DNA of 64,000 nt. Origin: Tricholomella constricta (Eukaryota; Basidiomycota; Agaricomycetes; Agaricales; Lyophyllaceae). Within the stretch, counting starts at the first letter, position 1. Each line of letters opens with the position of its first letter. Positions 37,055-57,082 of the stretch are shown in pieces. The DNA lies in assembly GCA_013368375.1 (NCBI GenBank), contig JAACJP010000003.1, forward strand, positions 186,001 to 250,000, read 5' to 3'. Under the pieces are notes generated by a model. It made no database searches. It had not been told where the DNA came from and saw nothing but the letters and a program-made list of their open reading frames with translations. A program made the position numbers and the translations under genes.

Positions 37055-37239
37055 ATAGCTAAGGCTATGTAAGCTTGCGCACGGCTAGCCTAAGATTCTT
37101 TAAGAATCAGGCTCGCCCGGACACGGAATCCTTTTCCTCTCTCACGTGATTACCGATTACTTTCCTTTTTGAGCTATGCGCGCCATTTCTCAGACGTCTT
37201 TCTCCTGCGCGCTCCCTCACCTTATAAATTTTTTAGTCA
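37053..37239 (+). repeat. Left direct terminal repeat of the DIRS-like element
   Basis: Begins TGATAGCTAAGG and ends TTTTTTAGTCA. Matches 42855-43030, including the shared GCTTGCGCACGGCTAGCCTA and CTCTCTCACGTGATTACCGA blocks. About 11 bp longer than the right copy. Probably holds the element's promoter; the ACGTGA box is in both copies. Confidence 0.88.
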
Positions 37240-37243
37240 ACAT

Positions 37244-38665
37244 ATGTCCACCCTGCTCCCTAATGCCAGAATTCTAGGGCCTCTGCACGAGGATTTTGAC
37301 TTCGAAGAACACCTCAATGTACCGGATGCGCATAGGATGCCTGAGATTCCCCTTTCCTTGCGGGTGTCTCGCAATGTCGACATCAAGAAGTATAACGACG
37401 AGAGCATCTTCAAGACTGTATCGGCCAAGGAAACTCCTTGCCCACGTCCAGTTGACCTGGACATCGGCCCGACCTTGTGTCAGCCTTATGCATATACTGA
37501 CGAAGAGATGCAGGAAATGGTGGACAGTCAGGCCGTCTGTGCGACTCTCAGCCCTCTGCCTCTCGAGCTGGTCCGTTTCATCGAAGCGGAGCATTTACGC
37601 TCTAAGAAGGTCGCAGAGGTGGACAGGCAGGACAAAGATATGGAGAGCAAGGCTTGGACTCGTTTACTCGGAAGTATGTGTCTCGTTGATCCGGTCAAGC
37701 GTGTTCCTGCCCAGCGGGACCGGATCACTATCCCGACAACCTATTTGCTCTGCATCAAGAACAAGCTCTGCCCTCCGCTCAATTTCTTCACCAACGATCG
37801 CATTGATCTCGTCAACTACTCTCCTCAAGATGTCCACTTCAAATTGTTGCGCCCTTGGAGTGACGAAGACTCGTCGGAGAAGGTGCAGTTGCTGGATATG
37901 CCGAAGATGATCTCTATGTGGGGTGCGGACGACGTGAGCACTTGCCTTACGCCCTACCGATACACTGAAGCTTCAGCCGATCTTTTAACGGCTCTCGAGC
38001 TTCTGTGTAATCCTCTCTCGTCGTCCACCAGCACCAGCACCACCGGTACGGAAACCCCATCCTCCGAAGCCGCCACTTCAGTGTACTCTTACGCCACAGA
38101 GTTCAAGAAACATCGTGATTTCTTCCTGCAATTGGACAATTACGAGACCACATTCAAAGATTGGTACCCGTTTGAGGTCAAGGCATGTCGTGATATTCTC
38201 AAAGGCATTCTCTTTGACTGGGATGTCTATGCCTCGGAGGTTTTGTTGCGCATTTGTCTAGGCTCTCTCGAACGTGAACGCAAGGCCGCCACCCCCGCTT
38301 TCAAGCGACCTTTTGAGCAAGGTCATTTCACTGGTTCAAAGACGCCTCGCGCTTCGCGCTCGGATTCAGCACCATCTCAAATCGCACTCGCCAGCCCTTT
38401 CGGGCCAGAGCTGGACGAGTGCCTCAATGTCTCATATGTGGATGCGGTCACTCCTTTCGGGAGTAACCGAGCTCAATCACGTCCTTCGAAGACGGAAAGC
38501 CTCTCCACGCTCAACTCAGAGACAACGCCTTGTGGACCACAAAATCCAGCAAAGGGTTCAAGAGAATCTGTACGCTTTTTAACCTCAACCGGTTCTGCGG
38601 CGGACATTGTGTGGAGGACAACACGCCGCTTTCGAACGTACCTCATCCTGCGAGTGCACGTTTGA
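37244..38665 (+). CDS. Gag-like protein of the DIRS-like element
   Basis: The start MSTLLPNARILGPLHED at 37244 is just outside the left repeat; an in-frame ATG at 37169 lies inside it. The body (FEEHLNVPDAHRMPEIPLSL; LPLELVRFIEAEHLRSKKV) is the usual first ORF of agaric tyrosine-recombinase retroelements, likely a nucleocapsid protein. Near the end a second frame reads LFNLNRFCGGHCVEDNTPL, which looks like the true C-terminus with a Cys/His pair, so a frameshift near 38565 is likely. No known enzyme domain. Confidence 0.65.
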   Translation: MSTLLPNARILGPLHEDFDFEEHLNVPDAHRMPEIPLSLRVSRNVDIKKYNDESIFKTVSAKETPCPRPVDLDIGPTLCQPYAYTDEEMQEMVDSQAVCATLSPLPLELVRFIEAEHLRSKKVAEVDRQDKDMESKAWTRLLGSMCLVDPVKRVPAQRDRITIPTTYLLCIKNKLCPPLNFFTNDRIDLVNYSPQDVHFKLLRPWSDEDSSEKVQLLDMPKMISMWGADDVSTCLTPYRYTEASADLLTALELLCNPLSSSTSTSTTGTETPSSEAATSVYSYATEFKKHRDFFLQLDNYETTFKDWYPFEVKACRDILKGILFDWDVYASEVLLRICLGSLERERKAATPAFKRPFEQGHFTGSKTPRASRSDSAPSQIALASPFGPELDECLNVSYVDAVTPFGSNRAQSRPSKTESLSTLNSETTPCGPQNPAKGSRESVRFLTSTGSAADIVWRTTRRFRTYLILRVHV

Positions 38666-38709
38666 TGGTTACATACAAGCCTAACTCCTATATCCAACAG
38701 CCTCTCGCG

Positions 38710-40880
38710 TAACACGATTTCTCGGCTCACATTCATTACCGACCTCCTCTTCCTAACTCATCGCCTGCTGACAACGATCTCTATGAATGTGTCGTAACCC
38801 CTTACAATATCTCGGCATTCCAACATCTTCTTAGCAAACACCATCTAACCAGCTCTTATCCCTTGCTCGACGAAAATCTATCTCATGGTTTCCCACTTGG
38901 TATCCTCCCAGAACTCCAGCACAGCATCATTATCAAAAATCACCCCTCCGTGGATACTCACTCTGAAGCCGTTCGTGATTACATCGCAGCTGAGTTATCT
39001 TGTGGTCGCATGTCGGGCCCCTTCAGTTTACAAGATGTCGAGAGAACTTTGCGAGGCCCAGTATACTCATCACGTTTCATCATGGCAGAGCATGATGTCG
39101 GCCCAGATCTTCCCCCCAAGCTGAGGGTCTGCCGTAACCTTTCGAAAAACAATACGGTTACTGGGATGCCCTCGGTCAACAGCTTCATATCTAAAGATGA
39201 TTTCCCTACTCGTTTCGATATGGCCTTCCAAGTAGCCAATGAGGTATGTCTATCCCATGACTCTTCTAAATTGCTTCTCCACTGCGAACCGTGGCTTTCT
39301 GGACCTCGTCTTAGCTACCTCTTTTGTTGGACATCGTCCAATGTTTTCTCCATCCCTTACTCCAATCTCCGCCCTCTTGGGCTATGATGATGTCCTCTCA
39401 TCGTCAAACTCCTATCTCTCTCATGCTTTCACGACGTACTCTTGTTGTAGCCATTCTTTTTGCATGGCGCGTGAGTTTTCTACACTCCAATCTCTGTATT
39501 TTATACTTATTGACGTCCCGTTGCACTCTCGCTTGGGGCGTCTCTACTGCACATATCTCTTTCCCTCTTCTACAAGCGACAGTTCCGGAGCTTGTGCTTA
39601 TCTCTCTCCATCCTCAGGTCGCACAAGCCCCTCCCGGCACCCAGGCCATGTCCTTCGACATCAAGGCCTTTCATTGCACCTGCCCGGCTCTCTCTCATCA
39701 TTAGCCCTTTTTAGTCATCTCATTCAAAGGCGATTTCTTTATCGATCATGTACATCCCTTCGGTCGCCAACCAGCTAGCAGTAACTCCGAGCAAGTCGCT
39801 AATGCAACTGTAGATATTTGGCATGCCGAAACCTCCATGCAAGCTCTCTTCCTCAAATACGAGGATGATATCGAAGCCTTCCGCTTCCCTGTGTCTGATG
39901 GCCCTTTCCGAGACGGTGCCTATACTTATGCCTACGACCGTGGCTCTATTTCAGGACCTCAACGTTCCCTGGCACCCTGATAAAATGGACCCATGCTTCT
40001 CAAGCACCTTCACCTTTATTGGTTTCGCATGGGATCTCGAGTCGTGCATGGTCTCCCTTCCAGAAAAGAAGCGGCTCAAATATTTCGCTGGAGTCTCGAA
40101 TATGCTCGATGCCCACCTCCGTCTTCATTGCTCTTTCCTCCTCCGCGATATACAAATTATTCACGGCACTCTCGTGCATGTATCATTCGTCTTTCCCGAC
40201 GGCTCTTCGCACCTGCCAGCTTTTTCTTACTTTATGTCGGGTTTGCCCTCTCCTACTTCTCATAATTTCTCTCCTCATCCTCAACAGACTTCCGGGCTAA
40301 TAACTTCTTCTGGGCTAATAATTTCGTTCATCATCACCTCTCCGACTCTGTAGTATTCGCTCTCCGTTGGTGGGCTAGTAAACTAGCGGACCCTCTTGCC
40401 GCCCGGGTCCTACATCCCATCAGTTCTCAGGCTCCAGACCTTGTCTACGTCGACGCTTCTACATCCTGGGGCATCGGGATAATCATAGACAAATTCTGGC
40501 ATGCTTTCCAGCTTCGAGAAGATTGGAAACGCCCGCAGCATGACATATGTTGGCTAGAGGTGCTCGCAGTTGAGTTCGCCATATACTTCCTCGTCCAGAT
40601 TGATCTGAACAACACATGTGTTTTGACCCATTCTGACAACATGGGCGCTATCGGCGCCCACCACAAGTCTCGCAGCCCAAATGTACCTATCAATCTCTGC
40701 GCTCGACGCACCTATGCTGTTCTTGCTCAGTGTCTCGTCATTCCATCTTTTGAGTACGTCGCTTCGGAAGATAATCCTGCTGACCCCATCTTGCGTGGAG
40801 AATCGGGGTCCCCCTCTCGTTCTTGGCTCCCGCGGGCCTTCGAGCTCCCGCGTGAACTTCGACCCTTCTTCCATGAATAA
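38710..40880 (+). pseudogene. Reverse transcriptase and RNase H of the DIRS-like element
   Basis: RT text starts SAHIHYRPPLPNSSPAD and continues through RGPVYSSRFIMAEHDVGPDL, KLRVCRNLSKNN and FPTRFDMAFQVANE (about 39205-39240). After a gap of about 400 bp that looks like an intron it resumes with APPGTQAMSFDIKAFH and the active site KYEDDIEAFRFP (about 39857-39892, the YxDD box), then NVPWHPDKMDP and TFIGFAWDLES. RNase H follows: VYVDASTSWGIGI, WLEVLAVEFAIYF, HSDNMGAIGAHH and EDNPADPILRGE (about 40445-40800). A TAG near 39702 and a frameshift near 39935 break the frame. Confidence 0.8.
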
Positions 40881-41539
40881 CTCACTTCGACACGCGGTCT
40901 CTCGTGAGGCCGCCAACGTTGCCTTGGGTGTCTCAAATGACCACGAACACCCTCCACACAAGTCGACCGTCAAAAGCTCTCCTTCGTGTTGTAGGTCGAG
41001 GTGTCTTTGTCATGCCCCCACCGAAGTCTCCTCATCCAAAGGGCATCATGACTGCATCTAAGCAAGCCCCTTCTATATCCTCGCAATCTACAGCTTCCTC
41101 CTCCCCTCCGCTTCGCATCGTCGCCCAGGGTGTTTCCATTATGCTTGCTTCGCGCTCTTCTCGACAATCCGGCATAACCATTATGCCTGCTCGCAATTCT
41201 AACCCTCGCGCCGACTCTCCGATCATCTCATTGCCACCGCCACCCTCTTTGTCATTGTCGATGCCAACTGCCCATCTCGCAGACGCCTCAATCTCCTCAT
41301 CCTTTCCTCGTCTCGCCGCTGCACAACATTTTCCATTCCGCCATCGTCGTCTTCCCTCCTCTTGTAATACTTATCAATCCTCATCTCTTCATCCACCAGT
41401 TCTGGCAGACCAACATATTCTTCTTTGGACAGCTCCGTACTCCCACCGAGCTCGTTCCTCACTCGACAAAGTCTCACCTTGTCTCCAGGTACCTCCCCTG
41501 TCCCTCTCTTATCTCTTTCTTTCTCATCCACCCTATAGT

Positions 41540-42533
41540 CCAACATCTTCGAGTGCCTCCTTGAATCGGTCTCTGATTCCACGCGCCAATCTTACGGTGC
41601 TGGACTCCTTCGATTTACCCAATTTTGCGACCGTGAGCACATCGCTGAACACCAACGCATGCCCGCCTCCGAAGTTCTCCTATCTGCTTTCGTCGCCGAC
41701 GCTGCGGGCACCTGTTCCGGCGAGTGCATTCGTAATTGGTTAAATGGTCTCCGATTTTGGCACAAGCTTAATCGAGCTCGTTGGCACGGTCGAGACTCTC
41801 TCGTCCCATCGTTGCAAAAACAGCTGATAAGTTAGGATCCACCTTCCGCCGCCCCCCTCGTAATCCTATCACTGGAGAACACCTTTACGCTCTTCACCAA
41901 AAACTTGACCTCTGGTCCCCTTTTGGGGCTGCCGTCTGGGCGACTGCCCTCACCGCCTTTTGGGGCTGTCGTCGCCTTGGGGAACTTCTTCCTCAATCTG
42001 CAACCTCTTACTCTCCCATCACCATACCACTCCGCTCTGCCCCTTGCTCGACATCTTTTGTCGATGGCAAAAAGGTCATCACCATCCACCTCCCCTGGAC
42101 CAAGACCACTACCTTTTGTGGCGGCGAGTGCATCCTTACCGCCACGGGTAACATTTTCTGTCCTGTCACCGCCATCAAAAACTATCTTCGCATCAACAAC
42201 ATATCTTCGTCCGCCCCCTTCTTCGCTTTTTCTGATAATGCTCACCCTTTTTCTCCTTTAACTAAAAGCTCCTTCTTACAACACACTTCTGCTATCTTCT
42301 CCGGCCTCCGCCTCGAACCTGTTTTTGGCCACAGATATTGCATCAGGGGCTCCCTCGAACTCCTTGCTGCCGGGGTCGCCCCCGAGGTCATTATGAAACT
42401 CGGTGGTTGGTCTTCTCTCTGTTTCCTCACCTACTGGCGTCGTCTCAATTTTCTCGTTCCCTCAGCTATCATACGTACTTGGGAGGATAATCATCGTCAT
42501 TTCGCCGAAAAACATCATTTACCTTATCTTTAA
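41540..42533 (+). pseudogene. Tyrosine recombinase of the DIRS-like element, catalytic Arg lost
   Basis: The N-terminal core-binding part (SYGAGLLRFTQFCDREHIAE, about 41590) and the catalytic part from about 41835 are in different frames, with a shift near 41820. The first catalytic Arg box is WGCRRLGELLP (about 41961-41993) and the Tyr box is LGGWSSLCFLTYWRR (about 42399-42445). The His/Arg box reads GHRYCIRGSLELL (about 42327-42365), where the family has H-x-x-R; here the position is Cys (TGC, 42339-42341). By family logic this copy cannot catalyse strand exchange. It ends at 42533. Confidence 0.82.
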
Positions 42534-42768
42534 TTTTTGCTTTCAATTTACATTACCTTCTCCCTACTTAACAATATAATTCTTTCGCATGCCTCTGTGG
42601 GGTAGCTCGGACAGTAAGGTCGCCCGACGGTGGAGCCATGCTCTATTCGGGTAGTCGTGGCCTCCCTTCCTGACCCAAGCTACACTTGGACCTCGCTCGC
42701 GGTATCATCTCAGATTTAGCCGACCGGGATCGTGCGCGGGGCCCGACTTTCTTACTACCATTTGTACA

Positions 42769-42790
42769 GAGGTTCGAGCAACCGAACCTC
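42769..42790. promoter_or_regulatory. 8-bp perfect hairpin in the DIRS-like element 3' region
   Basis: GAGGTTCG (42769-42776), a 6-nt loop and CGAACCTC (42783-42790). It lies between the recombinase stop and the right repeat in a 320-bp non-coding stretch. It could be an RNA 3' structure. It resembles a tRNA T-arm GTTCGA, but no full tRNA fits. Confidence 0.5.
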
Positions 42791-42854
42791 TTACCAAACC
42801 ATTCTTCTACTCATTCTCTCTTCTTACTTGCATTCTCGAGAGCGCTAGCCTTAT

Positions 42855-43030
42855 TGATAGCTAAGCTATAGCTTGCGCACGGCTAGCCTAAGATTAAATA
42901 AGGCTCGCGCGGACACGGAATCCTTTTCCTCTCTCACGTGATTACCGATTCCTTTTTTTTTGAGCTATGCGCGCCATTTCTTAGACATCTTTCTCTTGCG
43001 CACTCTCTCACCTTATAAAATTTTTAGTCA
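42855..43030 (+). repeat. Right direct terminal repeat of the DIRS-like element
   Basis: 176 bp, begins TGATAGCTAAGC and ends TTTTTAGTCA; pairs with 37053-37239. Confidence 0.88.
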
Positions 43031-43972
43031 CCCCCCATAACCTTGAAGAAAGCCTTCGGACCCATGCCTCTGGCTGTCAGAACATCCGAACCGCTGGCCT
43101 TGACTGGAGGGCCGCACGGATACCGTGGACCGCAGGAACGGCTGAAATGAGGGGAAGACTTGGACTGGTGTTTAAAAGAGGAAGATACTTCTAGAATATG
43201 GGATAGTACTTACTGACGATCTTTACGCCTAGCAATCTGGTGTCTTCGACAGTGAAATCCGGAGTTGAGCCGCCATGGACCACATTCAGAAGCACTTTTT
43301 TGTTGTTTGAGTTCATTAAGCGTCCAGTTTGAAATTGAACGGAGGCATACTGGTGCCGGTGCTAGCTCTTTCACTGTTCGCACGAGTTCTTCCCGGCTCC
43401 TGACACTGTTAGAGGACGTCCGGATGGGCAAAGGCGAGCGAGGAGCTGCAAGCCGGCAGGAGCCAAGAGGGTCCTGAATGCGGTCAAGTGAGCAATCAAC
43501 AGTGCGAAACGTGAGAAGGGCGACGAGAGAGCAAGCTAAGAGTCGATCAATGTATAAACCCAAAGATACTGTTATTGTTCAGGTTGGAGATATTCTATCT
43601 CCAACACAGGCTTACTACATCGCCGAGCCAGTGATAAGGCGGTATGTAAAGGCGCTGACTACTGATGAGTAACAATTGTCCAGCTGACTGATAGGAATCT
43701 AAGTAGTGGTGTCGGTGTGGAAGTCATGGCTACGAAAGGGACGTAAGAACAGTATGGTGGTCAGCAAGTATGTCTAAGGCGGGGGCCATGGGGGCCGATG
43801 ACAGAGAACAAGAGACTAAGCGATAATAGGAGCAGACGAGAGAGACATGGGTGGGTGGAACAGGGAGATGCCAACAAAAAACGAAAGCGAGAAATTGCGG
43901 TTGTCAAGGCGGGATTTTCCGGAGCTGAGGTTCAAATGAGTTTTGCTCAATGTCGCCCACGCCCACGCGCGC
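43031..43972. other. Host sequence between two retroelements, possible gene remnant
   Basis: Minus-strand reading from about 43400 to 43050 gives coding-like text (VHGGSTPDFTVEDTRLLGVK, then ARGMGPKAFFKVMG) across a possible intron near 43210, suggesting the edge of a host gene cut by insertions. The family is not recognised. A 117-codon minus frame (43210-43563) overlaps it. Confidence 0.35.
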
Positions 43973-44957
43973 TGATAGAGCTAGAAGGCCTGTGGGTGCT
44001 GTACACAACAACAAAACAACTAACAACTATAGGGGGCGAGAAGTGTTAAAAGTTCCCAAACACGCAAGTGTGCAGGGCTAAAAGGATGGTTTGGGCGAAG
44101 GTTAAGACGACCCGACTCGATATTAGTCGAACCGATGACGATGCGACGAGTGCGATGGCATGCGATAGTTCCCAGCTGGAACTGGTCGGCGACGCGACTG
44201 TTGATGTCGGTGGCGCGACAACGAGACGAACGATGCTAAAACGGAGAACTCACGGGTTCGGGCGGTGGTTACGAGCGGACAGATACGGCGGTTTACTAGA
44301 TTTACTACAGTGGCGACGGTTACGGCGGTTTGCGACGGGTTTATACGATGAGGACGGTTCGGTGACGACGGAGACGATGGTTTTTGAGCTATTAACTCTG
44401 AACGTGAGGGAAAATACGGGCTATAATTCACTGGGGGGGCAGTAGGTACTACATGGGATTTGTTTATATGGTAAAGCCAAATCACCGACTCTTAGTGCGA
44501 CCATGCAGGCGTTTCACGTTAGGTTGTCGCCAAGTCTGGTGCCGCGCGGTGCATTTCTGAGGACAAGTCGAGTGTGGCGCGTTATTGATCGGATACCAGC
44601 GTCGGATCGGATACGTGGTCAGGGCAGTCAGCGATTGCGGGACTCCGTGAGTTAGTCGGATCTGTGCCGTGAATAGGAGACGGAGTGGTTTTTGTCGGTA
44701 AGTACGTCATGGGTAAGGCGCCAAGTCGGGTGTTTGACGTTTTGACAGACGAACGTGCGTAGTCGCTTGGTGACTACACGGTTACTCCGATCTCCGGCGC
44801 CCGTGAACGAGGTCGGCCGAGATGGGTAGGTCGCGTTTAGGTCGGGAGTTGGTCGGCGAGTTGGTTGGCGAGTCGGTCGATACTGTCGCGTGCATCTTTG
44901 GGCGGTTTACTGTGGTCGGGACGTCGGATCGGTGGCCAGCCGAAGGGGTGCATATCA
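43973..44957 (-). repeat. 3' LTR of Ty3-B
   Basis: 985 bp, same length as the right LTR and about 97% identical by eye. In element orientation it starts TGATATGCAC and ends CTCTATCA. Open frames inside both LTRs (such as 44068-44445) are not conserved in length and look like chance. Confidence 0.93.
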
Positions 44958-44973
44958 TCTCCTCCTTACTTGA
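44958..44973 (-). promoter_or_regulatory. 3' polypurine tract of Ty3-B
   Basis: On the minus strand TCAAGTAAGGAGGAGA abuts the LTR start TGATATG, the expected place for plus-strand DNA priming. The same 16-mer recurs at 46397-46412 and 50530-50545. Confidence 0.85.
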
Positions 44974-44977
44974 ATTA

Positions 44978-44995
44978 CCGACTGTCCCTAGTCGG
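44978..44995. promoter_or_regulatory. Hairpin upstream of antisense gene 1
   Basis: CCGACT-GTCCCT-AGTCGG, perfect 6-bp stem, 4 bp from the polypurine tract. It pairs with the related hairpin at 46417-46434, in which one stem base pair changes on both sides. Confidence 0.65.
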
Positions 44996-45132
44996 CTTCG
45001 AGGTACCGGATCGGCATCCTAGTTGGCATGGTGTTGTACGGGGTGATGCGGGGGGGGTGGCGGTGCGTACTGCCCTGGCGACGAGTCCGATTCAGTTTTA
45101 TACCCCTGCCGTCCGTGGTCGTCCTTATTACA

Positions 45133-46044
45133 ATGTCTCGTCCTCCCACCGATTTTGGGAAAGTCGTCTGGAACCTTGACGAGGACTGGATCGCCTGGCG
45201 TTCACTCCCCATCGACACTGGTCGTGAAGAGTGTACTTCTCTCATGGAGAACATTTTGGACGGCATCGAGGTGTTAAGGGGTCAGGACGCGGTGTCCGAG
45301 CGATGGGAGTGGCCTAACAAAGATGCTGCTTTTGCCGACTTATGGGCGGTCATTTCGCACGACGCCGAGTGGTCTGCCCGTTTTAGGGATTGGAGCCCAG
45401 AGGTACGTCTAGGCGCTTGTGTCGTTGTGCTTTTCGTGGTCCGATTGACGCCTTTATTCTAGGATGACTATACGCGCCGTCGTCGCGAGCGGCGACTCCG
45501 TTTGGCGGATGGTATAGATAAGGTGATAGACGAGGAAGCTGCCCGTGTCGCGTCAACCCCTGTGGCTTGTAAGCGTAAACGAGACCTCGTCGACGACGAG
45601 TGCCAGGAGTCGGAGAGTCAGGAGGGTTCCGTCGGTGGGCATGCGGGAGTTGGGGCTCTCCTGGAGGGGGTCTCCCAAGTCCATGATCATGACTTGGTGG
45701 TTGTCGCCCGTCGCTTCGCGATGGAACAGGTCGCCAGTCTCTCGTCGTTGACCTCCGACGTTCCTGGTGATGAGGATCTGCACGACTCAAATCCGGTGCA
45801 GCCTTTGTCGGTTGTGTCGCGCTTCGATCTCGCCGGTGTGGACCACGCTCTGTCTACCCGTTGTTCCTTTTTACAGTCTCTGGTTCGGGATTCTCATATC
45901 CTCGAGTCGCGGCAAGAGGTCCTCCGCTTGTCGATCCGCCAGCTCTATCAAGAGGTCGTAGCGACGTCTACCGCCTTAGACGTACTCCGGGCGCGCCGTA
46001 CCGAGTTAGTTAGCGAAGTTCTAGTGGGTGTCGCGGAAAGCTAG
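45133..46044 (+). CDS. Ty3-B antisense gene 1 (coiled-coil protein, paralogue of gene 2)
   Basis: Exon 1 is 45133-45402 (exactly 90 codons, MSRPPTDFGKVVWNLDEDW) and exon 2 is 45463-46044, giving about 283 residues; intron GTACGT...TTCTAG. Exon 1 matches gene 2 exon 1 (DEDWIAWRSLP / GKDWEEWRSLP; ENILDGIEVLRGQ / EDILEGVESLRAQ; WAVISHDAEWSARF / WAVVSVDSEWSVQF). The C-terminal helix region (VDHALSTRCSFLQSLVRDSH) matches gene 2 (VERALSSRHALLRSLVQESQ) and looks like a coiled coil. A KRKR tract follows VACKRKRD. The cysteine cluster of gene 2 is absent. It runs opposite to gag-pol, about 175 bp from the LTR, so it could use an antisense LTR promoter. Function unknown. Confidence 0.72.
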
Positions 46045-46396
46045 GGCAAGGAGCACGACAGGGGGGGTTTCGAGAACACGGTGGTGGCAGGAGTGAAGAG
46101 GGCGGAGACGCTGGCGACAGCGCTCTAGGGCTTGGAATGTCGCCGTCTGGTTGGTCCTAGTCGCGTCCTGTCCGTTATTGACCATCTTTGCATTCGTTAC
46201 TGTCGTGTCCTAGAATTGTGTTACGTTTCTTTCGCTTCTTGTTGGCAGCCGACCGTTGTGATGCTTTATTCGGTCTTTTATCGTGCGTCGCCAACCATGT
46301 CTGGTTTAGATGGTCTACGCCACTTCTTTGCAGAGATGCGTGGTCATGTGATTTTGTTGGTCCATGTGGGTGCCATGTGTGCGCCATGCTGTTTCC

Positions 46397-46412
46397 TCTC
46401 CTCCTTACTTGA
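46397..46412 (-). repeat. Second copy of the Ty3-B polypurine 16-mer
   Basis: Minus strand TCAAGTAAGGAGGAGA, identical to the 3' tract. It lies upstream of antisense gene 2, probably as part of the duplicated leader. Confidence 0.8.
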
Positions 46413-46416
46413 GCTG

Positions 46417-46434
46417 CTGACTGTCCTCAGTCAG
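46417..46434. promoter_or_regulatory. Hairpin upstream of antisense gene 2
   Basis: CTGACT-GTCCTC-AGTCAG, perfect 6-bp stem at the same distance from the 16-mer as the hairpin before gene 1. The second stem pair is T-A here and C-G there, a compensated change. Confidence 0.65.
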
Positions 46435-46544
46435 GCCTGGGTGTCGCGCGTGCGTGGCGTGGGAAGGGTGTGGCGGTACGAAATTTTTTTGTCAACACGT
46501 CGTCGTTGTCAGTTCTTCCTTTCTTTCCTTGCCTCCCTCCCTCC

Positions 46545-48581
46545 ATGTCTCCCGTAATTCCCAATCTCGCACTCGTCTTGGACAACCTGGGGAAGGACTG
46601 GGAGGAATGGCGCTCTTTGCCGCCGGACGCGTCGTGTGCCAAACGCGCTGTCGTCCTCGAGGATATTTTAGAGGGTGTCGAGTCCCTTCGTGCCCAGGTG
46701 GACAGCGGGGAGCGGCAGGTCTGGCACAATGAGGATGAGGCTCTGGCTGCCATTTGGGCCGTCGTGAGTGTGGATAGCGAGTGGAGTGTGCAGTTCGCTG
46801 GTCTGCGGCCAGAGGTGAGTCCCTTGGGTCTGTCGGACCCGTTTGTTGTCTGAGGTGCTGGCTCTGTTTGTGTAGGACGAGTACATTCGCCGACGTCGGC
46901 AGCGACGTCTGCGCCTCGGGTCGGAGGTCGGCACTCGTGGGTCGCAGTCGGTGGCTCCGGAAGAGCCCGTGGGCGGTCCGAATGCGCTAACCAAGGGAGT
47001 GGGTCCGATGGACGTGGATGGCGAGGCGAGTGTGGGACTGCCCTCTGCTGTTGGGGCCGACGGTCGTTCCGTGGTCGCTGGCTCTGCCGGTAGCGCTGCG
47101 CCTGCTTCGGGCGCTGCCCATAGCAACGAGGGGGTCACGCGTACGGTAGAGGGTTTCCGTCAGGTATCGGAGGCGGCCAGTGTCGCGGCGATGGCTGCGC
47201 GCATGGCGCGTGAAGTCGAGGAGCCTCTGCAGGACCCTCTTGCGCCCCTCTCTCGTGCTGTTTCCGAGGTCGCTTTGAGTGGGCCGCCTGTCGCTGTCGG
47301 AGAAGGGGCTTCACCGGTGCGCCCGAAGGTCGAGGGTAAGAGGCGCGACGGTGCACGCAAGGTGGCGTACATGTCCGTGGGTGGTGGTCGTCCGTCAGCG
47401 TCGCCCGCCCTTCCGGTGCCTGGGGTGAGTTCGCTTTTAGCAAGGTCGGATTGCTGACTTCCTGACGTCGTTTGATAGGTGTCCCGTCCCCTTGCTCGTC
47501 CCGTGGGGTCGGGTGAGTTTGTGCTTCGTTCCTTCCGCCATGTTTTGCCCTCTGAGCGGGCGCCGCCTGATCCCCTTTGCAGGTGCCGCCCAAGCGACTT
47601 CATCGGTCATCCGAGACTCCGACAAGAAACGCAAGCGTGTGGTGGGAGAGGACGACGAGGGGTCGGTCGTGGTCGTAGAGGAGGTCGCGGAGAAGGGGAA
47701 GAAGCGGAGGATGACCGCGAACCCCAGCGTCTGGGAGCTGAAGTTGGAGGAGTTCAAGGTGGAGTGTCCCGACTGGGTCGTGCGCGACGTTCCGGTGAGC
47801 GGGGTCGGTCTCCTTCTCGTTGCGTGTCCTTCTAATTTGTTGTGTTTTTCTGTAGTGCAAGCGTTGTGTGCGCGCCAACCAGACGTGCGTCCAGCGACTG
47901 GGCAGTGGGCCTTGCGCGCGGTGCAAGATCCAGTCTAAAGGCTGTGTCTCGTCGGTCGCAGCTGGCGGCAAGGGGCAGGGGTCGCGGCCGCGTCGTCGCG
48001 CCATCTCCCGTCCCACCGTTGAGAATTCCGATGGCGAGGTGCAGATCGTCTCGTCGCCATCCGATGCGCGTCGGGGTCGGTATGCGACCGACGGGCCGTT
48101 TGGGATTGGTGCTTCCGCGGGGCGTCTGGCACTGGAGCGTACCGAGGCGTTGCCTTTCCTTGGGTCTGACTACCTGCTACGCGGACGGATTTCCGGGGAT
48201 GCTGGTCTGCCGACGGGGGCTGACTTGGTTGGGTTGGGACGGGACCGGGAGGCGACGTCGGCCGTGGTCGCGCAGTTCTCTCGTGCCGACGTGGAGCGAG
48301 CGCTGTCGTCGCGACACGCTTTACTCCGCAGCCTCGTTCAGGAATCACAAATGGCGGAGGCGCGGGTGGAGATCCTTCGGTCTACCCTGGCAGCATTGAA
48401 CGACCAGTTCGTTGAGACGACTGTCGCCGTTCAACTCCTCCAAGATCGCTACGACCAGATGTGCGCGGCCGACGAGGCTTATGTGGGGGGGCGGGGTTCC
48501 GACGATGATGCCAGCGACGAGGAGGGCGAGGGTCCAGAGCGCGCGGGTAGTGACTTCGACGAGGGGGCTGTGGAGGGGTGA
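46545..48581 (+). CDS. Ty3-B antisense gene 2 with a Zn(II)2Cys6-type cluster
   Basis: Five exons by GT-AG joins that hold the frame throughout: 46545-46814 (90 codons, MSPVIPNLALVLDNLGKDW), 46876-47424, 47479-47512, 47583-47794 and 47856-48581, total about 596 residues. Exon 5 opens with a cysteine set spaced C-x2-C-x6-C-x8-C-x2-C-x6-C (CKRCVRANQTC then CARCKIQSKGC, 47856-47945), the exact plan of fungal GAL4-type binuclear clusters. A basic KKRKR tract lies just before it (exon 4), a coiled-coil-like region follows (VVAQFSRADVERALSSRHAL), and the tail is acidic (DDDASDEEGEGPE). The order of cluster, basic tract, coiled coil and acidic tail suggests a DNA-binding regulator; inferred, not shown. 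It converges on the end of pol. Confidence 0.75.
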
Positions 48582-48963: not shown

Positions 48964-50529
48964 TCAATTTTGTTCTTCTTCCGATTCGGAGTCGTCGCTA
49001 ACGACTTCGGGTCGGTCTTCGTCGTCTGTGAGCGTTGTCGCCTCCAATTCTCTGAGTCGTCTGGTGTCGATGTCTAGGGCGTTATCGGGTAAGGGGATGT
49101 TGCTCCGTGCGAAGTAGGGGGTGAGTCGGAATGCTGCTACGGGTCGGTGCAAGACTGTGCCGTCGAGTTCGCAGAGTATGTAGGCGCCGCCTCGGTTTCG
49201 TGATATGACGACCAGTGGTCCTAGGTATCGCGGTCGCATTTTTCGATTGAGCGACTTCTCGATTTTGGTGTTACGCATGAGGATGAGGTCTCCCCATTTA
49301 AAGTTGTAATCGCGAAGGGTTCTGGCGTGTTTGATTTCGAAGCGGACCGCCGCTTGCCGCCGTGCCGCGTAGACGTCGGAATGTAGTCGGTCTAGGTCAG
49401 TGGAGCGTTTCTGTAAGGCGATCGCGCGACGTGTTAAGAGGGCGGTGGAGGAAAGGATAGAATCGGGCGTGGTTGCATATACGTAGCTTCCACGATATCG
49501 AGTGGGAGAAGCAGATGGGTGCCCGTCGCGGCGTAATAAGGGGAACATCCCATTCTTTTACGGACCGTGACACGTTCGGCCCAAAATACTGAATAGGCGG
49601 ATTGCGACCATTTGTTTCTCATTCCCATCGGCAGCTTTAAAAAGGGATTGTCGGACGTCGAAGTGAGGTCTTTCGATGAGGCCATTGGCTTTAGAGTTAT
49701 AGCCCGAGATGCGAATGTTGTGAACGTGGTATTTCTTCGTAAGGTGTTCGGCGGCCTTGATAAAGGCTGGTCCATTGATCGGTGACGATTTCGCGTAGTC
49801 CGCCCCAGCGGCAGACGATGTCTTCGTACATCCAATCGCCCAATGTACGGCTGTTTTCTTTTCGCAGCGCGCGCCACTCGGGGAAGTGGATTAGGGAACA
49901 GCGACCTTGAACGATATATTTGAATCCGTTGGAGGCCGGTAGGTGCATGGTGTCGATATATATCTTCGCGAACAGTGGTGCGGGTGTTGCGACGGTCGGG
50001 GGAATAAGGACTTTGGTGGTCTGTTGAATCTGGCATATGTGGCATGTTTGTACGAACCAAATGACGTCGGCTCAAACGTTGGGCCACCAGAAGCGCTCGA
50101 GGAGGGTCGCGCGGGTCGCGTAAAATCGCTTATGTCCGAGGTTGTCGTGGACCGATCGTAAGATCTCCAGTCGCGTCTCGGGTCGGGCGACTAGCTTGTG
50201 TGCACCTTGTCTGTCCCGTCGCCATAGTCGCGTCCCATCGATGAAGAAACCTGTGGCGTAACGGATGAAGGTTGCGTACTGTTCATCGGACATATTATCA
50301 GGTCGCCTGAGGTCAGTTAACCATTGCCTAACAACGTCGATGCGCCGATCCTGGGCTTTCGCCGTGTCAGTCCTAGGTATATCATCATATGACATGTCTG
50401 TCGGGTTCGTATTAGGGTCGCGTATGCCTGTATCGTCGTCGGTGCGGATTTTAGGCTGTCGCAGAAAGTTGGTTACGAGTTCGTGAGCCGTTGGGTCTGG
50501 TGGCGTCGGGTCGGTGTCAGCTGCCACTA

Positions 50530-50545
50530 TCTCCTCCTTACTTGA
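50530..50545 (-). promoter_or_regulatory. Candidate central polypurine tract of Ty3-B
   Basis: Minus strand TCAAGTAAGGAGGAGA inside pol (encodes part of ISSKEEI), identical to the 3' polypurine tract. It lies about 260 bp from the arithmetic centre of the element (about 50,280). Confidence 0.65.
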
Positions 50546-51625
50546 GATCTGAGCTAGGGCGAAGGTCTGGTAAATATGCAATGGCGACGGTGGCTGGGGC
50601 AGCGGTTGTATAATATGCATCAGGCTTTGCATTCGGTCGACCCAGTCCTCAAAGTCGGCTTCGTCTTCGTCGTAAGTATCGGGTGGATCATCGGGCTGTC
50701 GGGGGCGACGCGACAATCCGTCGGGACCGTGGAAAGTGCCTTTAACATGGACGAGTTCGAAGTGGAACATGAGGACAGAGACAATCCATCTATTGACAGA
50801 GGCGGATGGTTGGATATCGGGATTGGAAAGCATGCCTTTGATGTAGCGGGCGTCAACTTCGACGACCAAGTTTCGGACGCCTATGACGTAGAGCCGCAAG
50901 GCTCCGAGTGCGCGGAAGAGGCCATAAAATTCCAGCTTGGGTTGCGAAAAACGCGATTCGCGGTCGTTCAGCGTAATGGAGCCGAAGCGGTTGTATCTGC
51001 GTCGCGTTCGGTTGATTGGGTCGGTCTGACAGAGGTAAAACCCGACTGCTATGTGTGAGGTATTGACGGCGAGTATAACCGGGTCGTTGGATGTGTAGTC
51101 GATGGGGACAAGAGGTTTAGCTTCGGCGATTGCTTCGACGATATCGCGTTGCGCTGCTATTTGGTCGGGCCCGAATTCGATCTTTACGGGTTAGTTTTAC
51201 GAGGTGGTGCGCGCGGTGAGCGAAGTTCTTGACAAATATTCTTAGTACTCCGACAGTTCCTAGGAAGGCGCGCAGTTCCGACAGTGTGGCGCAAGATGTC
51301 CATTTTCGCAATAACGTGAGGCGGTCCACATCGGGGACACGACCAGCCGGTGTGCAAACGTGTCCCAGGACCTTGAATTGCGGCGCACATATGACTAGTT
51401 TCTTGCCTGAAAAGGTACCGCCGCAGTATTTCATACGTTGGAGAATTCGGTTGACGTTATTGAAGAACTCCCAGATCGCGAGGCGTACGTCGGAATTGTC
51501 GGGATGTGTTGTCGGTAGGCCTGTGTTGGGGTCGGGGTACCAAGTCGCGGGACCCTTGATAGGAGCATCATCGATATATGGCAGCGTGTGGTCGGGGATT
51601 TCGGGTTGCAGGATGTAAGTAACAT

Positions 51626-51817
51626 TGTAACGGGCGTTACCGAATATGGTAGCGATCGTTGTTTGTTCTTATTTAAATCTAAAGGTACTGGCTATATAAA
51701 GCCAGCACCTCTACATTATGTAATGTTAAGACTTACTCATACCTTTAACTACACACAATCCTATCATGGTCGTGTTTAGTTTGGTGTGAATATATTAAGT
51801 CTATTCCAACCCTTACA
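51626..51817 (+). repeat. Solo LTR related to the Ty3-A LTR, nested in Ty3-B pol
   Basis: 192 bp beginning TGTAACGGGCGTTACCGAAT and ending CCCTTACA, about 80% like the LTR at 56833-57023. It is flanked by a perfect 5-bp duplication AACAT (51621-51625 and 51818-51822). Removing it with one duplication rejoins the RT frame between HDDV and TYILQPEIPDH. It contains TATATAAA at 51693-51700. A full element inserted here and was lost by LTR-LTR recombination. Confidence 0.93.
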
Positions 51818-52850: not shown

Positions 52851-55672
52851 TTAATTCCTCGAGAGTATACGAAAATTTACGTCTTTCTTGGGGCGGCGAC
52901 GCTGTCCGCGTGCGAAGGTCGGGATCGCAATGACTTCTTGAGTGTTTGGATCGGTGATAGTTATAATGGTGTCGTCAGCAGAGCGCGTTTTGACGTTGGA
53001 GCAGGTGAGCACGTCGAATGGTCGTCCGAGGAGTATGTCGTAATCTGGAGGTAGAGGGTGACTTCGCCTATGGTGCATGGTACGTTTCGCGCTAGTCCGA
53101 GCGATGGGTCAGTCGTGCCGTTCGCGGACTGCATCTGAAGAACGATGGTTGGGTCGTATTTGACTCCCAATCCATGGCAGACCTCCTCCGACATTGCAAT
53201 GATTTGACATCCGCTATCCACAATGCTTTCGATTTGTTCCCTTGCGTCGACCATCAGCATGATGGATCTAAGCGCGTGCGATTCCATTGCGACGATCAGT
53301 CTGTCGGGGCATTCTCCCGGTAACAGGTTTTGGTAGTACGTGTCGTAGACGTCGCCGGTGACTAACGCACCTGGTGGTGGCGTCGCGTTGTCGCTATTGC
53401 CTTCGCAGGGGAGTGCATCAAGTTCTTCTATGTAGGCGGACGTAGGGGCTTCATTGTATACCGTAATAAGGTTGCTGTTTATGATTCTCTTGGGTGTGTT
53501 GGCGTCCCTGAATTTTCCGCGAATCTCTGGTGCGACTCCGCAAAGTTCTCTGACGGTTACCGACATTGTCGAGTCGAGCGCGCGTTCAAAGAGGTCGGCC
53601 GATTTAGTCGGGTCAGAAATGGGCGCTTGGGTTCGATATGCGCTATCGGCTTTCGCTTTTTCGGTGGCAGCTAAGTTCCGCGTGGTGGGAGGTACGTAGC
53701 GATTGTCGGGAATATTGGGGAACGGATGAATTGGCGCTTTGTCGCGCGTAGCGGTCACGGGGTCGGCTCTGGTGCTAGGGATCAGCGGTATGTTGGATGG
53801 TAGTGGGGTAGCTTTAGCGTCGCTTTTCTTTGGGTCCGGTGTAGTCCGCGGTGTGGGTGCTTCCTTGGTGGTCGGAGCGTCGGCGTCTTGAATGGTCTCG
53901 ATAGTGACAGGTCGCTTCTGCGGCGCGCGACTAATGAGTTCTACTCCGTCAAAGACTTCTTTCCGTGCACGCAATGTGTTGAGTTCCCGCTCCAATACGA
54001 CCATTCGATCCTCGATTTTCAAGTCATGGTTGGTGATATCGTTGAATTGTAGTATTTCTAGCATCATGCCTTCGGTCGGGTTCGCGTTAGCCAATAGTTG
54101 TCCTGTTGCTAATTGGTTGGGGTTACGTCTGTGCCACTCGTCGATTTTGTCTTTTATGTATCTGCCTGGTGTCCCAAGTGGTATGAGCGCGCCGCTCGGT
54201 AGTCCTATTTTGTTGTCTTCGGGTCGTCGGCGGCAGCGCCCTTCTGCCATGTATTGTTGACATATGGGGCAGTTGGGAATGTAATGTCCTTCGCCACCAC
54301 AAAAGTGACAGTTGTCGTGAGGTACCCGATTTGGCCGATTGCCGTTGCTTCCTGTAGTGTGTTCTAAGCGGTGGATGTGCTGTTCTAGAAGGTGAATTTT
54401 CTCGTAAAGCTCTTCCAATTTGAGGGGTTGGTTCGCGTTCGGTGACTTGGTCGCGTCCGATAAAGGTCCGCGTGGTGCGATCGCAATCTGTGGTGGTGCG
54501 TGCACCGGCTCTTCCTGTCGTCAGACGGTGCTGGTTCCGTGGAGAATGTGTTCGGCCGCCGCGCGAATGTTTTCGGTGGAGTAGGGGTCGTCTGGGTGGT
54601 GGTTCAGATCTAAGATTTCGAGTCTGCGATGGATTTTTGACCATAAGTCGGACTGGAATGCGCGGCGAAATTGGCGGTCGCGTTCGTTTTTCGAGAGTCG
54701 GTCTTTGCTGACAAGGAATTGAGTGATTGGAAGGAACCGTTGGTAATACTCTCCGAGGTCGCTGTTGGATTGGATCCCTAGTCGGTGTCATTCTCTGATC
54801 AGGTGGTCGAGGTCGGCCATCGAGTACTTTCTTTCCTCGCTAGCTCCTGGATAAAGTGCCATTATCGCTTTTCGCCAGTCGTCGTGTGCGCCGTTCGCGA
54901 ACTCCTCGAGTTGTTCCCATAGGTCGGCCGTATCGATATCGGTATATCGTGTGGCGTGCATTTTCTTTTCTCGTTCGTCTACCACGTTACATTCGGTGAA
55001 GAGGTGATCCAGGTCTGAGAAATACCGCCGTAGTTCGCGTGCGCATTCGGGTGAGAACGTCGGTGCCGAACTTTGTCCGCGCGCGGGCATTGGTTTCATA
55101 ACGATCGGTGGTTGTGCCATGACAGATGGTGTTGGTCTCTGAAGAGGGGACGGAGAGGGGGAATATGACGGTGAGGAAGAATCTGAGGTTTCGGGTGTCA
55201 TAGGCAATAGGGGAGTGAGTCTAAATTCTACTCCTTGATCGGTAGTAGGGAGTTCCGACGCAAAGGGGTCGGAGTCTGAGTTGGTTCGGGCGGTCGGTTC
55301 ACGAGACGGGGTTCGGTCGGTCAGGGTAGGCGATGGTAGGTCTGATAAAGGGCTATAGAACAGGGGACTGAGGTTGTTGTGGATCGCGCGATGTGGGGTT
55401 ACTGAGTGAAAGAGCGGGGAGAGGGATTCTGAGTCGGTGTCGGCCTCTCCGAAGACAGCGCGGATTTCGGCACGAAGGGTTCGGGCTCTCGTTTCTTGTC
55501 GAGTCTCCGGCGGAATGGTCGCCGCGTCGTAGGTTTTTACGAAAAAGTGTAAGAAGGTTGCGTGTTCGGCGGTGGTTTTTAAAACCCTCGCGGTGGGCTC
55601 CAGAATGATAGAGCTAGAAGGCCTGTGGGTGCTGTACACAACAACAAAACAACTAACAACTATAGGGGGCAA
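52851..55672 (-). pseudogene. Ty3-B gag and protease, disrupted
   Basis: One frame runs from 55672 to about 52961 with two TGA codons (at 54790-54788 after HLIRE and near 54514 after GTSTV). A likely start is MAQPPIVMKPMPARG at 55120, because the frame upstream crosses the PBS and LTR. Capsid-like text: CARELRRYFSDLDHLFTEC, EYYQRFLPITQFLVSKDRL. Zinc knuckle CHFCGGEGHYIPNC (C-x2-C-x4-H-x4-C, about 54305-54264). Protease active site IVDSGCQIIAMSEEV (about 53227-53180) with SLGLARNVP. A frameshift near 53045 moves the end of the protease (YDILLGRPFDVLT) to another frame ending at 52851. Both stops could be CGA-to-TGA changes. Confidence 0.85.
55585..55602 (-). promoter_or_regulatory. Candidate tRNA primer-binding site of Ty3-B
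   Basis: On the minus strand, 3 nt after the 5' LTR, the sequence reads TGGAGCCCACCGCGAGGG. TGG complements a tRNA CCA end and the position is canonical. The tRNA was not identified. Confidence 0.6.
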
Positions 55673-56590
55673 GAAGTGTTAAAAGTTCCCAAACACGCAA
55701 GTGTGCAGGGCTAAAAGGATGGTTTGGACGAAGGTAAAGACGACCCGACTCGATATTAGTCGAACCGACGACGATGCGACGAGTGCGATGGTATGTGATA
55801 GTTCCCAGCTGGAACGGGTCGGCGACGCGACTGTTGATGTCGGTGACGCGACAACGAGACGAACGATGCTAAAACGGAGAACTCACGGGTTCGGGCGGCG
55901 GTTACGGGCGGACAGATACGGCGGTTTACTAGATTTACTACAGTGGCGACGGTTACGGCGGTTTGCGACGGGTTTATACGACGAGGACGGTTCAGGGACG
56001 ACGGAGACGATGGTTTTTGAGCTATTAACTCTGAACGTGAGGGAAAATACGGGCTATAATTCACTGGGGGACGGTAGGTACTACATGGGGTTTGTTTATA
56101 TGGTAAAGCCAGATCACCGACTCTTAGTGCGACCATGCAGGCGTTTCACGTTAGGTTGTCGCCAAGTCTGGTGCCGCGCGGTGCGTTTCTGAGGACAAGT
56201 CGAGTGTGGCGCGTTATTGATCGGATACCAGCGTCGGGTCGGATACGTGGTCAGGGCAGTCGGTGATTGCGGGACTCCGTGAGTTAGTCGGATCTGTGCC
56301 GTGAATAGGAGACGGAGTGGCTTTTGTTGGTAAGTACGTCATGGGTAAGGCGCCAAGTCGGGTGTTTGACGTTTTGACAGACGAACGTGCGTAGTCGCTT
56401 GGTGGCTACACGGTTACTCCGATCTCCGGCGCCCGTGAACGAGGTCGGCCGAGTTGGGTAGGTCGCGTTTAGGTCGGGAGTTGGTCGGCGAGTTGGTTGG
56501 CGAGTCGGTCGATACTGTCGCGTGCGTCTTTGGGCGGTTTACTGTGGTCGGGACGTCGGATCGGTGGCCAGCTGGAGAGGGTGCATATCA
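55606..56590 (-). repeat. 5' LTR of Ty3-B
   Basis: 985 bp, pairs with 43973-44957 over its whole length. Confidence 0.93.
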
Positions 56591-57023: not shown

Positions 57024-57035
57024 GTTTTTTAAACA

Positions 57036-57050: not shown

Positions 57051-57082
57051 AACACCCCTACAATTCCAAATTTTATTGTGAC

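Follow-up and report, generated by a model that had tools for sequence, protein, structure and literature searches.

Structure of the element and its antisense gene pair

The window (the whole 64-kb stretch of Tricholomella constricta DNA analysed here) contains a Ty3/gypsy element that reads on the minus strand and has the LTRs, polypurine tract, Ty3-type RNase H and integrase zinc domain of this group. Its two LTRs are 97.0% identical over 986 columns, and no clear target-site duplication was found in the flanks of this copy. The pol of the window copy is broken into several frames, and open pol frames of up to 1295 aa are present in other copies. The element consists of the following parts:

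43973-44957, minus strand: 3' LTR, with TG..CA ends
48964-49557, minus strand: pol C-terminus, facing gene 2 in convergent orientation, from sequence comparison
50072-51190, minus strand: RNase H and integrase H2C2 domains of pol (PF17917, PF17919 and PF17921, above cut-off)
52961-54520, minus strand: gag/protease part with a CCHC knuckle and an aspartyl protease (weak, below cut-off)
55606-56590, minus strand: 5' LTR, with TG..CA ends

A preliminary description of this DNA had placed two antisense genes between pol and the 3' LTR, and they are present at those coordinates, on the plus strand and opposite to gag-pol, which is the position of the antisense accessory ORFs of plant elements known as aORF-3R. 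The two genes, referred to as gene 1 and gene 2, comprise:

45133-45402, plus strand: gene 1 exon 1, 90 codons, encoding a helical domain common to gene 2
45463-46044, plus strand: gene 1 exon 2, with an RRRR tract, KRKR (45571-45582) and a C-terminal helix region, and in the window family no Cys cluster
46545-46814, plus strand: gene 2 exon 1, 90 codons
46876-47424, plus strand: gene 2 exon 2, from the alignment of copies
47479-47794, plus strand: gene 2 exon 3, with KKRKR (47624-47638)
47795-47855, plus strand: gene 2 intron directly 5' of the first cysteine codon, which from the comparison of copies also recurs in gene 1
47856-48581, plus strand: gene 2 last exon, with the Cys6 cluster, a long helix and an acidic tail, from dN/dS, alignment and AlphaFold2
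47856-47945, plus strand: C-x2-C-x6-C-x8-C-x2-C-x6-C cluster
48282-48488, plus strand: long, coiled-coil-like helix of gene 2 (exon residues 143-211), predicted by AlphaFold2 without alignment with ten-residue blocks at pLDDT 77-96
48459-48578, plus strand: acidic tail at the C-terminus of gene 2, its final 40 residues having a net charge of -12

The paralogy proposed for the two genes is borne out by their first exons, which are both exactly 90 codons long, share 43% identity and are followed by a phase-0 intron after codon 90; the KRKR tracts and matching C-terminal helix region are likewise present. Gene 1 encodes a product of 283 aa (45133-45402 joined to 45463-46044), gene 2 spans 46545-48581, and all proposed introns of both genes are GT..AG. 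Splicing of both genes is predicted because the intron positions are conserved between copies. For the intron preceding the first cysteine codon, a GT 5' site and AG|TGY were read by eye in 9/9 copies.

The exon list originally given for gene 2 holds in its coordinates and GT..AG introns, except that its third intron (47513-47582) is doubtful. The interval 47479-47794 is open and stop-free in five of the seven other copies, while the remaining two (L006 and L018) carry an additional length difference and then reach a stop; within it, the window copy has a one-base length change compared with all seven. Gene 2 therefore most likely has three introns rather than four, and the window copy is probably damaged in exon 3. 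Divergence at 47513-47582 is 0.22 in the pair L034-L036, compared with 0.32-0.45 for the three other gene 2 introns, and the differences of this pair are concentrated at third codon positions; in the closer pair L034-L018 it is 0.12, compared with 0.06-0.25 for the other introns. As a general feature, the intron 47513-47582 was rejected because other copies are mostly open there.

Distribution among elements and selection

The pair had been described as part of the element, and homologues with the same architecture do occur in dozens of elements of the host genome. Our tally of 116 putative Cys-exon loci, counted as search matches, was drawn from 103 of the 150 rows of one genome search and 13 of the 122 rows of another, with rows excluded if they began beyond the first residue, were short or were repeats (one kept locus starts at residue 18). 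Among these loci, 104 are convergent with a related pol, with Cys exon-pol distances falling mostly in two modes (87 pol rows), one has a same-strand pol only, and 11 lack a listed pol within 8 kb. Some of these pol-less or same-strand loci lie near contig ends. The raw genome match counts (127, 143 and 120) are exon-level and overlap between paralogues, and are not gene counts. Conversely, at least one Cys exon stands opposite pol in 72 of 85 pol elements (from 98 of 120 rows, with relatives of less than 66% identity left out), so that, as for aORF-3R, the gene is conserved in most copies; two Cys exons were found in 33 of them and none in 13. From these comparisons, the pair appears to be a conserved accessory module of a Ty3/gypsy clade in T. 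constricta.

A dN/dS near 1, named beforehand as speaking against the genes, was not seen between diverged copies, where values between families were 0.06-0.41. For gene 1 exon 1, dN/dS was 0.06, 0.07 and 0.08 in three pairs and 0.29 in another, and for exon 2 it was 0.32-0.37; for gene 2 it was 0.09 in exon 1 (one pair) and 0.16-0.18 in the last exon (moderately diverged pairs), and for pol 0.05-0.13. The very near pair L031-L032 is uninformative, as its intervals include 1 or nearly reach it. These substitution patterns establish both as protein genes under purifying selection. Chance ORFs were rejected on dN/dS, third-position bias, invariant cysteines and recurrence across elements, and an env-like gene on strand alone.

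The last-exon tree parts gene 1 from gene 2 (support 98/97), and the exon 1 tree does not separate them. By sequence comparison, the pair descends from a duplication that predates the element families.

The Cys6 cluster and other protein features

The Zn2Cys6 (GAL4) family has the spacing C-x2-C-x6-C-x5-12-C-x2-C-x6-8-C, and the cluster exon of gene 2 conforms to it. As described, gene 2 carries this GAL4-type plan, and 47856-47945 is its sole match in six frames of the window. All six cysteines are kept in 12/12 aligned last exons (eight from gene 2, four from gene 1), which are 30-98% identical to that of the window, and the cluster is intact in 19 of the 20 loci retrieved, the 20th being cut off before it. 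The view that only one gene of the pair bears the cluster is correct for the window family and fails in other families, in which gene 1 also has all six cysteines; the window's gene 1 has therefore probably lost its cluster.

The gathering cut-off of Pfam Zn_clus (PF00172), 21 bits, was not reached by any member among the scores listed; a match at E <=10 was obtained for 8 of 11 cluster pieces, the best at 20.7 bits (L047) and the window at 10.5-13.9, and none of these loci is among the matches listed in a Zn_clus scan of the host genome. A PDB sequence search gave nothing significant, with PPR1 only at E 0.71 and 0.58. In GAL4, basic residues between Cys2 and Cys3 contact CGG. The corresponding residues here are RKQGVS in the C7 type, VRANQT in the window, and ADANVD and VSYALD in the C38 type; the DNA-contacting basic residues of GAL4 seem to be mostly missing (e.g., ADANVD in the C38 family). 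AlphaFold2 without alignment modeled the cluster part of the gene 2 last exon at low confidence (pLDDT ~50). The protein resembles GAL4-type factors in its cysteine spacing, the helix after the cluster and the acidic tail, but differs in its sub-threshold profile score, apparently weak basic contact residues and the position of the cluster, which opens the last exon, whereas Zn2Cys6 clusters usually lie near the N-terminus. We regard the cluster as a putative zinc- and DNA-binding motif.

The acidic tail is present in 8/8 gene 2 sequences (net -11 to -18) and also in gene 1 of two families, and a KRKR-like tract in 6 of the 7 gene 2 stretches scanned, the one in which it was not found being that of L046. 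Exon 1 encodes a helical domain without a significant PDB match, and Foldseek with its model (pLDDT 68) gave a best E of 1.2. The homologue search proposed for gene 2 recovered copies in other elements of the host genome; with the full-length protein, no homologue was found among the 7993 candidates scored (a capped set), nor with the exon 1 region among 173. The last-exon alignment gave one match among 7991 candidates scored, from T. constricta itself, and 0/57 pattern matches were confirmed in a scan of IMG/VR.

Duplicated polypurine-palindrome blocks upstream of both genes

Upstream of each gene stands a block joining a polypurine tract to a palindrome, followed by a putative promoter box:

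44958-44995, plus strand: block 1, polypurine tract (minus-strand reading) and palindrome CCGACTGTCCCTAGTCGG (44978-44995), upstream of gene 1, from a genome pattern search
45057-45066, plus strand: GTGGCGGTGC box in the gene 1 promoter region, from upstream comparison
45099-45102, plus strand: TATA, 34 bp 5' of the start codon of gene 1, from upstream comparison
46397-46434, plus strand: block 2, second polypurine tract and palindrome CTGACTGTCCTCAGTCAG (46417-46434), upstream of gene 2, from block comparison
46470-46479, plus strand: GTGGCGGTAC box in the gene 2 promoter region, from upstream comparison

The 31-base block pattern has 104 matches in the genome and none in a reversed control. 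The block and a GTGGCGGTGC-like box stand before both genes in every family sampled, and are common to 11/11 chosen upstreams (at most one mismatch per 9 bases) and to 0/20 shuffled sets, with near relatives among these upstreams and relatedness lost on shuffling. Both blocks are present in 13 of the 20 retrieved loci, one in 4 and none in 3. A TATA was found at -34 to -40 in 5/5 gene 1 upstreams examined. Where exon 1 was detected downstream, as it was for 40 of the 100 blocks listed, the block lies 110-161 bp from the start codon (a count drawing on 87 pol rows, 56 exon 1 rows and 100 of the 104 blocks). The palindrome arms are fully paired in 19 of 30 boxes and paired at 6 of 7 positions in the other 11, with a both-sided change from CCG..CGG to CTG..CAG; only three of the seven arm pairs were free to vary in this test, the others being fixed by the search word.

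Comparison with known antisense genes

Antisense accessory genes of LTR retrotransposons are already known (Grande, Retand, and Boty brtn), and what appears to be new here is that the pair is spliced, has a zinc cluster and is served by control regions present in duplicate; a literature search, in which few subscription journals were covered, listed no paper describing an antisense gene of this zinc-cluster type in an LTR element. According to the available portions of PMC7264820, the aORF-3R of plants include those of maize Grande (gene23), rice RIRE2, Silene Retand and PvRetro13, and the Grande gene, cited to 1997, has its own promoter and a nuclear product. Like our pair, they lie between pol and the 3' LTR, antisense to gag-pol, in most copies. 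Their products have no clear similarity to known proteins, with an SMC-type domain in PvRetro13, in contrast to the Cys6 cluster here, and those portions mention for them no spliced tandem pair of paralogues that combines such a cluster with duplicated polypurine-palindrome blocks (PMC7264820). TRP28 of Retand is likewise antisense, present in 97% of clusters and predicted to bind DNA, but has domain PF04195, is reported from flowering plants only, and is not described as a spliced pair in the portions available (PMC11963269).

Boty of Botrytis cinerea is a fungal element with an extra antisense gene, brtn, between pol and the 3' LTR (PMC7264820 and PMC8365987, in part); compared by description only, brtn is a single gene according to the title of Zhao et al. 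(2011), as opposed to the pair here. As an analogy only, HBZ of HTLV-1 is an antisense, spliced, nuclear leucine-zipper regulator expressed from the 3' LTR side, which tunes sense transcription and may activate itself, although it is a bZIP rather than a Cys6 protein, its transcript starts inside the 3' LTR, and its element is an animal retrovirus (PMC3185765, in part).

Proposed role of the pair

On balance, we lean slightly toward the gene products being nuclear, dimeric, self-regulating transcription factors of the element, with expression, splicing and DNA binding predicted from sequence. Transcription of each gene would start at a promoter of its own, immediately inside the 3' LTR or deeper in the element. 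The introns would persist through retrotransposition because the genomic RNA is the opposite strand, from which they are not spliced, and the case thereby illustrates how introns can persist in a retroelement. The proteins would enter the nucleus via their KRKR tracts, coordinate zinc with the six cysteines and form dimers by way of the long helix. Their targets would be the palindrome, the GTGGCGGTGC box or both, at the two antisense promoters, and perhaps also sites within the LTR. Gene 2, which has the cluster and the acidic tail, would act as main regulator; gene 1 of the window family lacks both and would there serve as partner or antagonist. Outside the window family, the view of gene 1 as purely antagonistic, without cluster and tail, does not hold. 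Together, the two would determine how sense (gag-pol) and antisense expression are balanced, much like HBZ in HTLV-1, and such a control role is plausible; control of the LTR or competition with sense transcription, as first suggested, would be more conjectural forms of it.

Alternatively, the proteins may be nuclear accessory factors of replication or integration that, for example, accompany the pre-integration complex, anchor it on chromatin or select its targets. KRKR tracts, a zinc cluster and a long helix would suit a chromatin tether equally, exon 1 encodes a helical domain that has no significant PDB match, and the function of the plant antisense genes is likewise an open question in the available portions of PMC7264820. 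We consider this unlikely, because the blocks and GTGGCGGTGC box are tied to both antisense promoters (in the 11 chosen upstreams), which feedback control fits better.

Since the blocks contain the polypurine tract, their conservation may instead serve plus-strand priming: block 1 adjoins the 3' LTR, where this tract must lie, and the polypurine part is identical in block 2. The duplicated block could then be a priming signal only, a 3' polypurine tract with an internal, central-type copy whose palindrome serves RNase H or a hairpin, the proteins being unrelated to it; a deletion junction at block 2 in L041 would agree with this. Against it, the palindrome is situated outside the tract, both sides of its free outer pair change, the upstreams share a second promoter box further down, and the spacing to the start codon is confined as given above, so that we doubt this account. 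A rather improbable reading makes the antisense RNA itself the effector, through transcriptional interference or dsRNA/siRNA, with the proteins secondary or relics. The genes converge on pol, so the genomic RNA would overlap them, and such a role has been discussed for plant elements (PMC7264820, in part), but purifying selection on amino acids and the invariant cysteines show that the proteins matter. Finally, host genes caught in, or neighbouring, one element copy might explain the 12 pol-less or same-strand loci, a suggestion of negligible probability that the 104 convergent loci, mostly at two distances and in families 30-98% identical, refute for the T. constricta genome.

Self-regulation by the pair has features that make it tractable. 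The function of antisense genes in LTR retrotransposons has long been in question, and here such genes combine a recognisable DNA-binding-type signature, measured purifying selection and a candidate binding site, the palindrome duplicated before both genes and kept across families; self-regulation can thus be tested with one protein and one 38-bp DNA. A more speculative and rather doubtful extension is that the pair forms a swappable self-recognition circuit of zinc-cluster regulators acting via the element's own palindromes, with gene 2 (and gene 1) cassettes exchanged between lineages so that each lineage retains private control, similar to the immunity groups of phages. Types of gene 1 and gene 2 do occur in differing combinations between elements: the mosaics have three types of gene 2 and two of gene 1.

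The Element and Its Antisense Genes

The minus-strand Ty3/gypsy element of the window carries two paralogous genes on its opposite strand, positioned as follows:

43973-44957 and 55606-56590, minus strand: LTRs of the element (97.0% identical, TG..CA ends)
45133-45402 and 45463-46044, plus strand: gene 1, between pol and the 3' LTR
46545 to 48581 (start, end), plus strand: gene 2, between pol (which ends at 48964) and the 3' LTR

The pol of this copy, in which Ty3-type RNase H and integrase zinc domains were found, is broken up into several frames. A clear target-site duplication is absent from the flanks (43968-43972 and 56591-56595).

We consider the pair best explained as regulators of the zinc-cluster type, nuclear and dimeric, that the element itself encodes. 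They would be transcribed and spliced antisense to its own sense strand, bind zinc and DNA, and act on shared cis elements, the direction of that regulation being conjectural.

Selection on the Coding Regions

Both genes are coding and under selection, as judged from Nei-Gojobori dN/dS on pairs of element copies (loci L031-L050, of which L031 represents the window type and L046 the C7 type). For gene 1, dN/dS was 0.06, 0.07, and 0.08 in exon 1 (pairs of L031, L036, and L046; 0.29 for L048-L050) and 0.34, 0.37, and 0.32 in exon 2. For gene 2, it was 0.09 in exon 1 and 0.18 (L034-L036) and 0.16 (L046-L047) in the last exon, with 0.41 and 0.32 in far pairs of near-saturated dS. The C-terminal part of pol gave 0.05-0.13. 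The preliminary description had named values near 1 between copies as grounds for refutation; all values for the two genes were 0.06-0.41 outside the very near pair L031-L032, whose values (0.66, interval 0.09-2.44; 2.13, 0.34-3.76; 0.49, 0.22-0.95) are of little information. Between L034 and L036, third codon positions differ by 0.30-0.47, positions 1 and 2 by 0.08-0.19, and three introns by 0.32-0.45.

The Cysteine Cluster and the Duplication

The first exons of both genes are, as initially described, exactly 90 codons long, and are 43% identical. A six-frame scan likewise bore out the GAL4-type cysteine pattern in gene 2, at 47856-47945, the sole such pattern in the window. Its cysteines (C1, C4, C11, C20, C23, and C30) are invariant in 12 aligned last exons (eight of gene 2 and four of gene 1, 30-98% identical to the window), and the cluster is intact in 19 of the 20 fetched loci, the remaining one stopping before it. 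The claim that only one gene of the pair has the cluster holds for the window family and fails for the C38-type family and the C66 and C3:14k elements, where gene 1 has it too; the window and C7 families have therefore probably lost the cluster from their gene 1. A last-exon tree (15 exons) parts gene 1 from gene 2 with support of 98/97, so that the two genes seem to have duplicated before the element families arose. In the exon 1 tree the two do not separate, and both trees drew a long-branch warning from the program.

Of 11 cluster pieces, eight match Pfam Zn_clus at an E-value of 10 or below; the best scores 20.7 bits, short of the 21-bit cut-off, and the window 10.5-13.9. AlphaFold2 models of the last exon alone contain a long helix (residues 143-211, pLDDT 77-96 by ten-residue block) and, at low confidence, two helices over the cluster. 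Exon 1 modelled as a pair forms four helices (pLDDT 68), with no significant structural match in PDB. The C-terminal tail is acidic in all eight gene 2 sequences (net -11 to -18); gene 1 tails are near neutral in five and acidic in two of seven. One main rival to a regulatory function is an integration or nuclear accessory role of these proteins.

For the last exon, a single database protein was found, P0001 of Tricholomella constricta; over 225 residues it is identical to the last exon on contig C61. At this locus (L045), gene model D9615_010527 of the public annotation, with a precomputed DUF6534 domain, extends into the cysteine exon, its own exon starting exactly at the first cysteine; the model is probably a fusion made in annotation where an element copy is truncated.

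Introns

Intron 1 lies in phase 0 after codon 90 in all eight copies with both ends placed, six further copies contributing only the 5'-site region. The intron that precedes the first Cys codon, present in gene 2 and gene 1 alike, has a GT 5' site and an AG abutting TGY in 9/9 listed copies, by eye. A third gene 2 intron (47513-47582), proposed in the preliminary description, is not supported: the window copy has a one-base length change there that is absent from all seven other aligned copies. The exon is open throughout in five of these, two having another defect further on, and intact copies are present. Given the known retroelement life cycle, the introns would survive retrotransposition because the genomic RNA is the opposite strand, in which they remain unspliced.

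Proposed Control Regions Shared by Both Genes

A polypurine tract joined to a palindrome, typically CCGACTG-N4-CAGTCGG, forms a block that precedes both genes in every family sampled. Among the 20 loci, 13 have both blocks, four have one (in L044, the second is a single base off the pattern), and three, all cut or truncated copies, have none. The genome contains 104 occurrences of the 31-base block pattern, and a reversed control none. Among the 100 occurrences listed, 80 are on the strand opposite a pol and 3' of it, 40 sit 110-161 bp upstream of a detected exon 1, and eight have neither pol nor exon 1. Eleven chosen upstream regions (five of gene 1 and six of gene 2, some close relatives) have in common parts of the block and the word GTGGCGGTG, at no more than one mismatch per nine bases; 20 sets of base-shuffled upstreams yielded no shared words. 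The box takes the form GTGGCGGT[GA]C in nine of the 11. Among 30 palindromes, 19 pair at 7/7 positions and 11 at 6/7, four of the seven arm pairs being already set by the search word; in that of window gene 2, one of the free pairs still pairs through a both-sided change. A TATA sequence lies at -34 to -40 in all five gene 1 upstreams, and none was found in the six of gene 2. The other main rival is that the blocks serve a mere priming role.

Apparent Exchange between Elements and Genomic Spread

The elements are mosaic. The DNA of L031 and L046 is 82% identical from the LTR to the end of gene 1. Similarity returns for about 120 bases around block 2 (76%), is absent at the DNA level throughout gene 2, and reaches 87% identity in pol. 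In the C66 element, a gene 1 83% like the C38 type stands with a gene 2 74% like the window, and pol is 90.6% identical to C38 vs. 81.8% to the window. Between L031/L034 and L046, synonymous distance is about 0.6 for pol and 0.58-0.79 for gene 1, rising to 1.7 for the last exon of gene 2. This patchwork suggests that elements have swapped gene 1 and gene 2 as cassettes. L041 (about 5520-5760, oriented) naturally lacks gene 1, whose first bases are joined straight to block 2. L033 and L034 (about 4313-4654, oriented), of the window family, match L031 only downstream of nearly the same gene 1 point; their LTR-like stretch resembles one half of the window LTR (80%), and they are perhaps another mosaic.

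Exon-level searches gave at least 127 genome matches with gene 2, 143 with gene 1, and 120 with the RNase H/integrase part, matches of the paralogues overlapping. Counting only matches that start at or near the first cysteine (individual cysteines unchecked), we obtained 116 cysteine-exon loci: 104 convergent with a pol piece (at least 66% identity, within 8 kb), one with same-strand pol only, and 11 with no such pol nearby. The 85 merged pol elements have two such exons in 33 cases, one in 39, and none in 13. With fewer pol pieces, the tallies were 103, 1, and 12, and 33, 38, and 13 of 84. Distances to pol are mainly bimodal, at 1-2 kb (the place of gene 2) and 3.5-4.5 kb (that of gene 1).

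Known Relatives

Antisense ORFs before the 3' LTR, of unknown function, are described in a passage of PMC7264820 for Grande, RIRE2, Retand, PvRetro13, and the fungal Boty, and DNA binding is predicted for Retand TRP28 antisense proteins in an excerpt of PMC11963269. Partial texts also describe HBZ (PMC3185765) and mention brtn (PMC8365987), and a figure legend in PMC2864245 includes an extra ORF of unknown function, strand unstated, in fungal gypsy elements. The word "antisense" is absent from PMC10799480, in which fungi were screened for co-opted transposable elements. Our literature search results on LTR elements included no description of a zinc-cluster antisense pair.

Other Elements in the Window

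A Helitron at 27915-34829 (plus strand) encodes Helitron_like_N, DUF6570, and PIF1 helicase in a single 2304-codon frame. Terminal repeats (37052-37239 and 42854-43030, 88.8%) bound the element at 37052-43030, which has frames that by eye resemble reverse transcriptase/RNase H and tyrosine recombinase (DIRS-like?), a reading for which Pfam on three frames gave no support. A second gag-like frame (56987-60532, plus strand, 1181 codons, retroviral protease domain RVP_2) lies close to the 5' LTR of the Ty3/gypsy element described above. Between these two elements, just outside that LTR, a 165-bp pol-region piece (51626-51790) recurs at 56833-56997 (82%).
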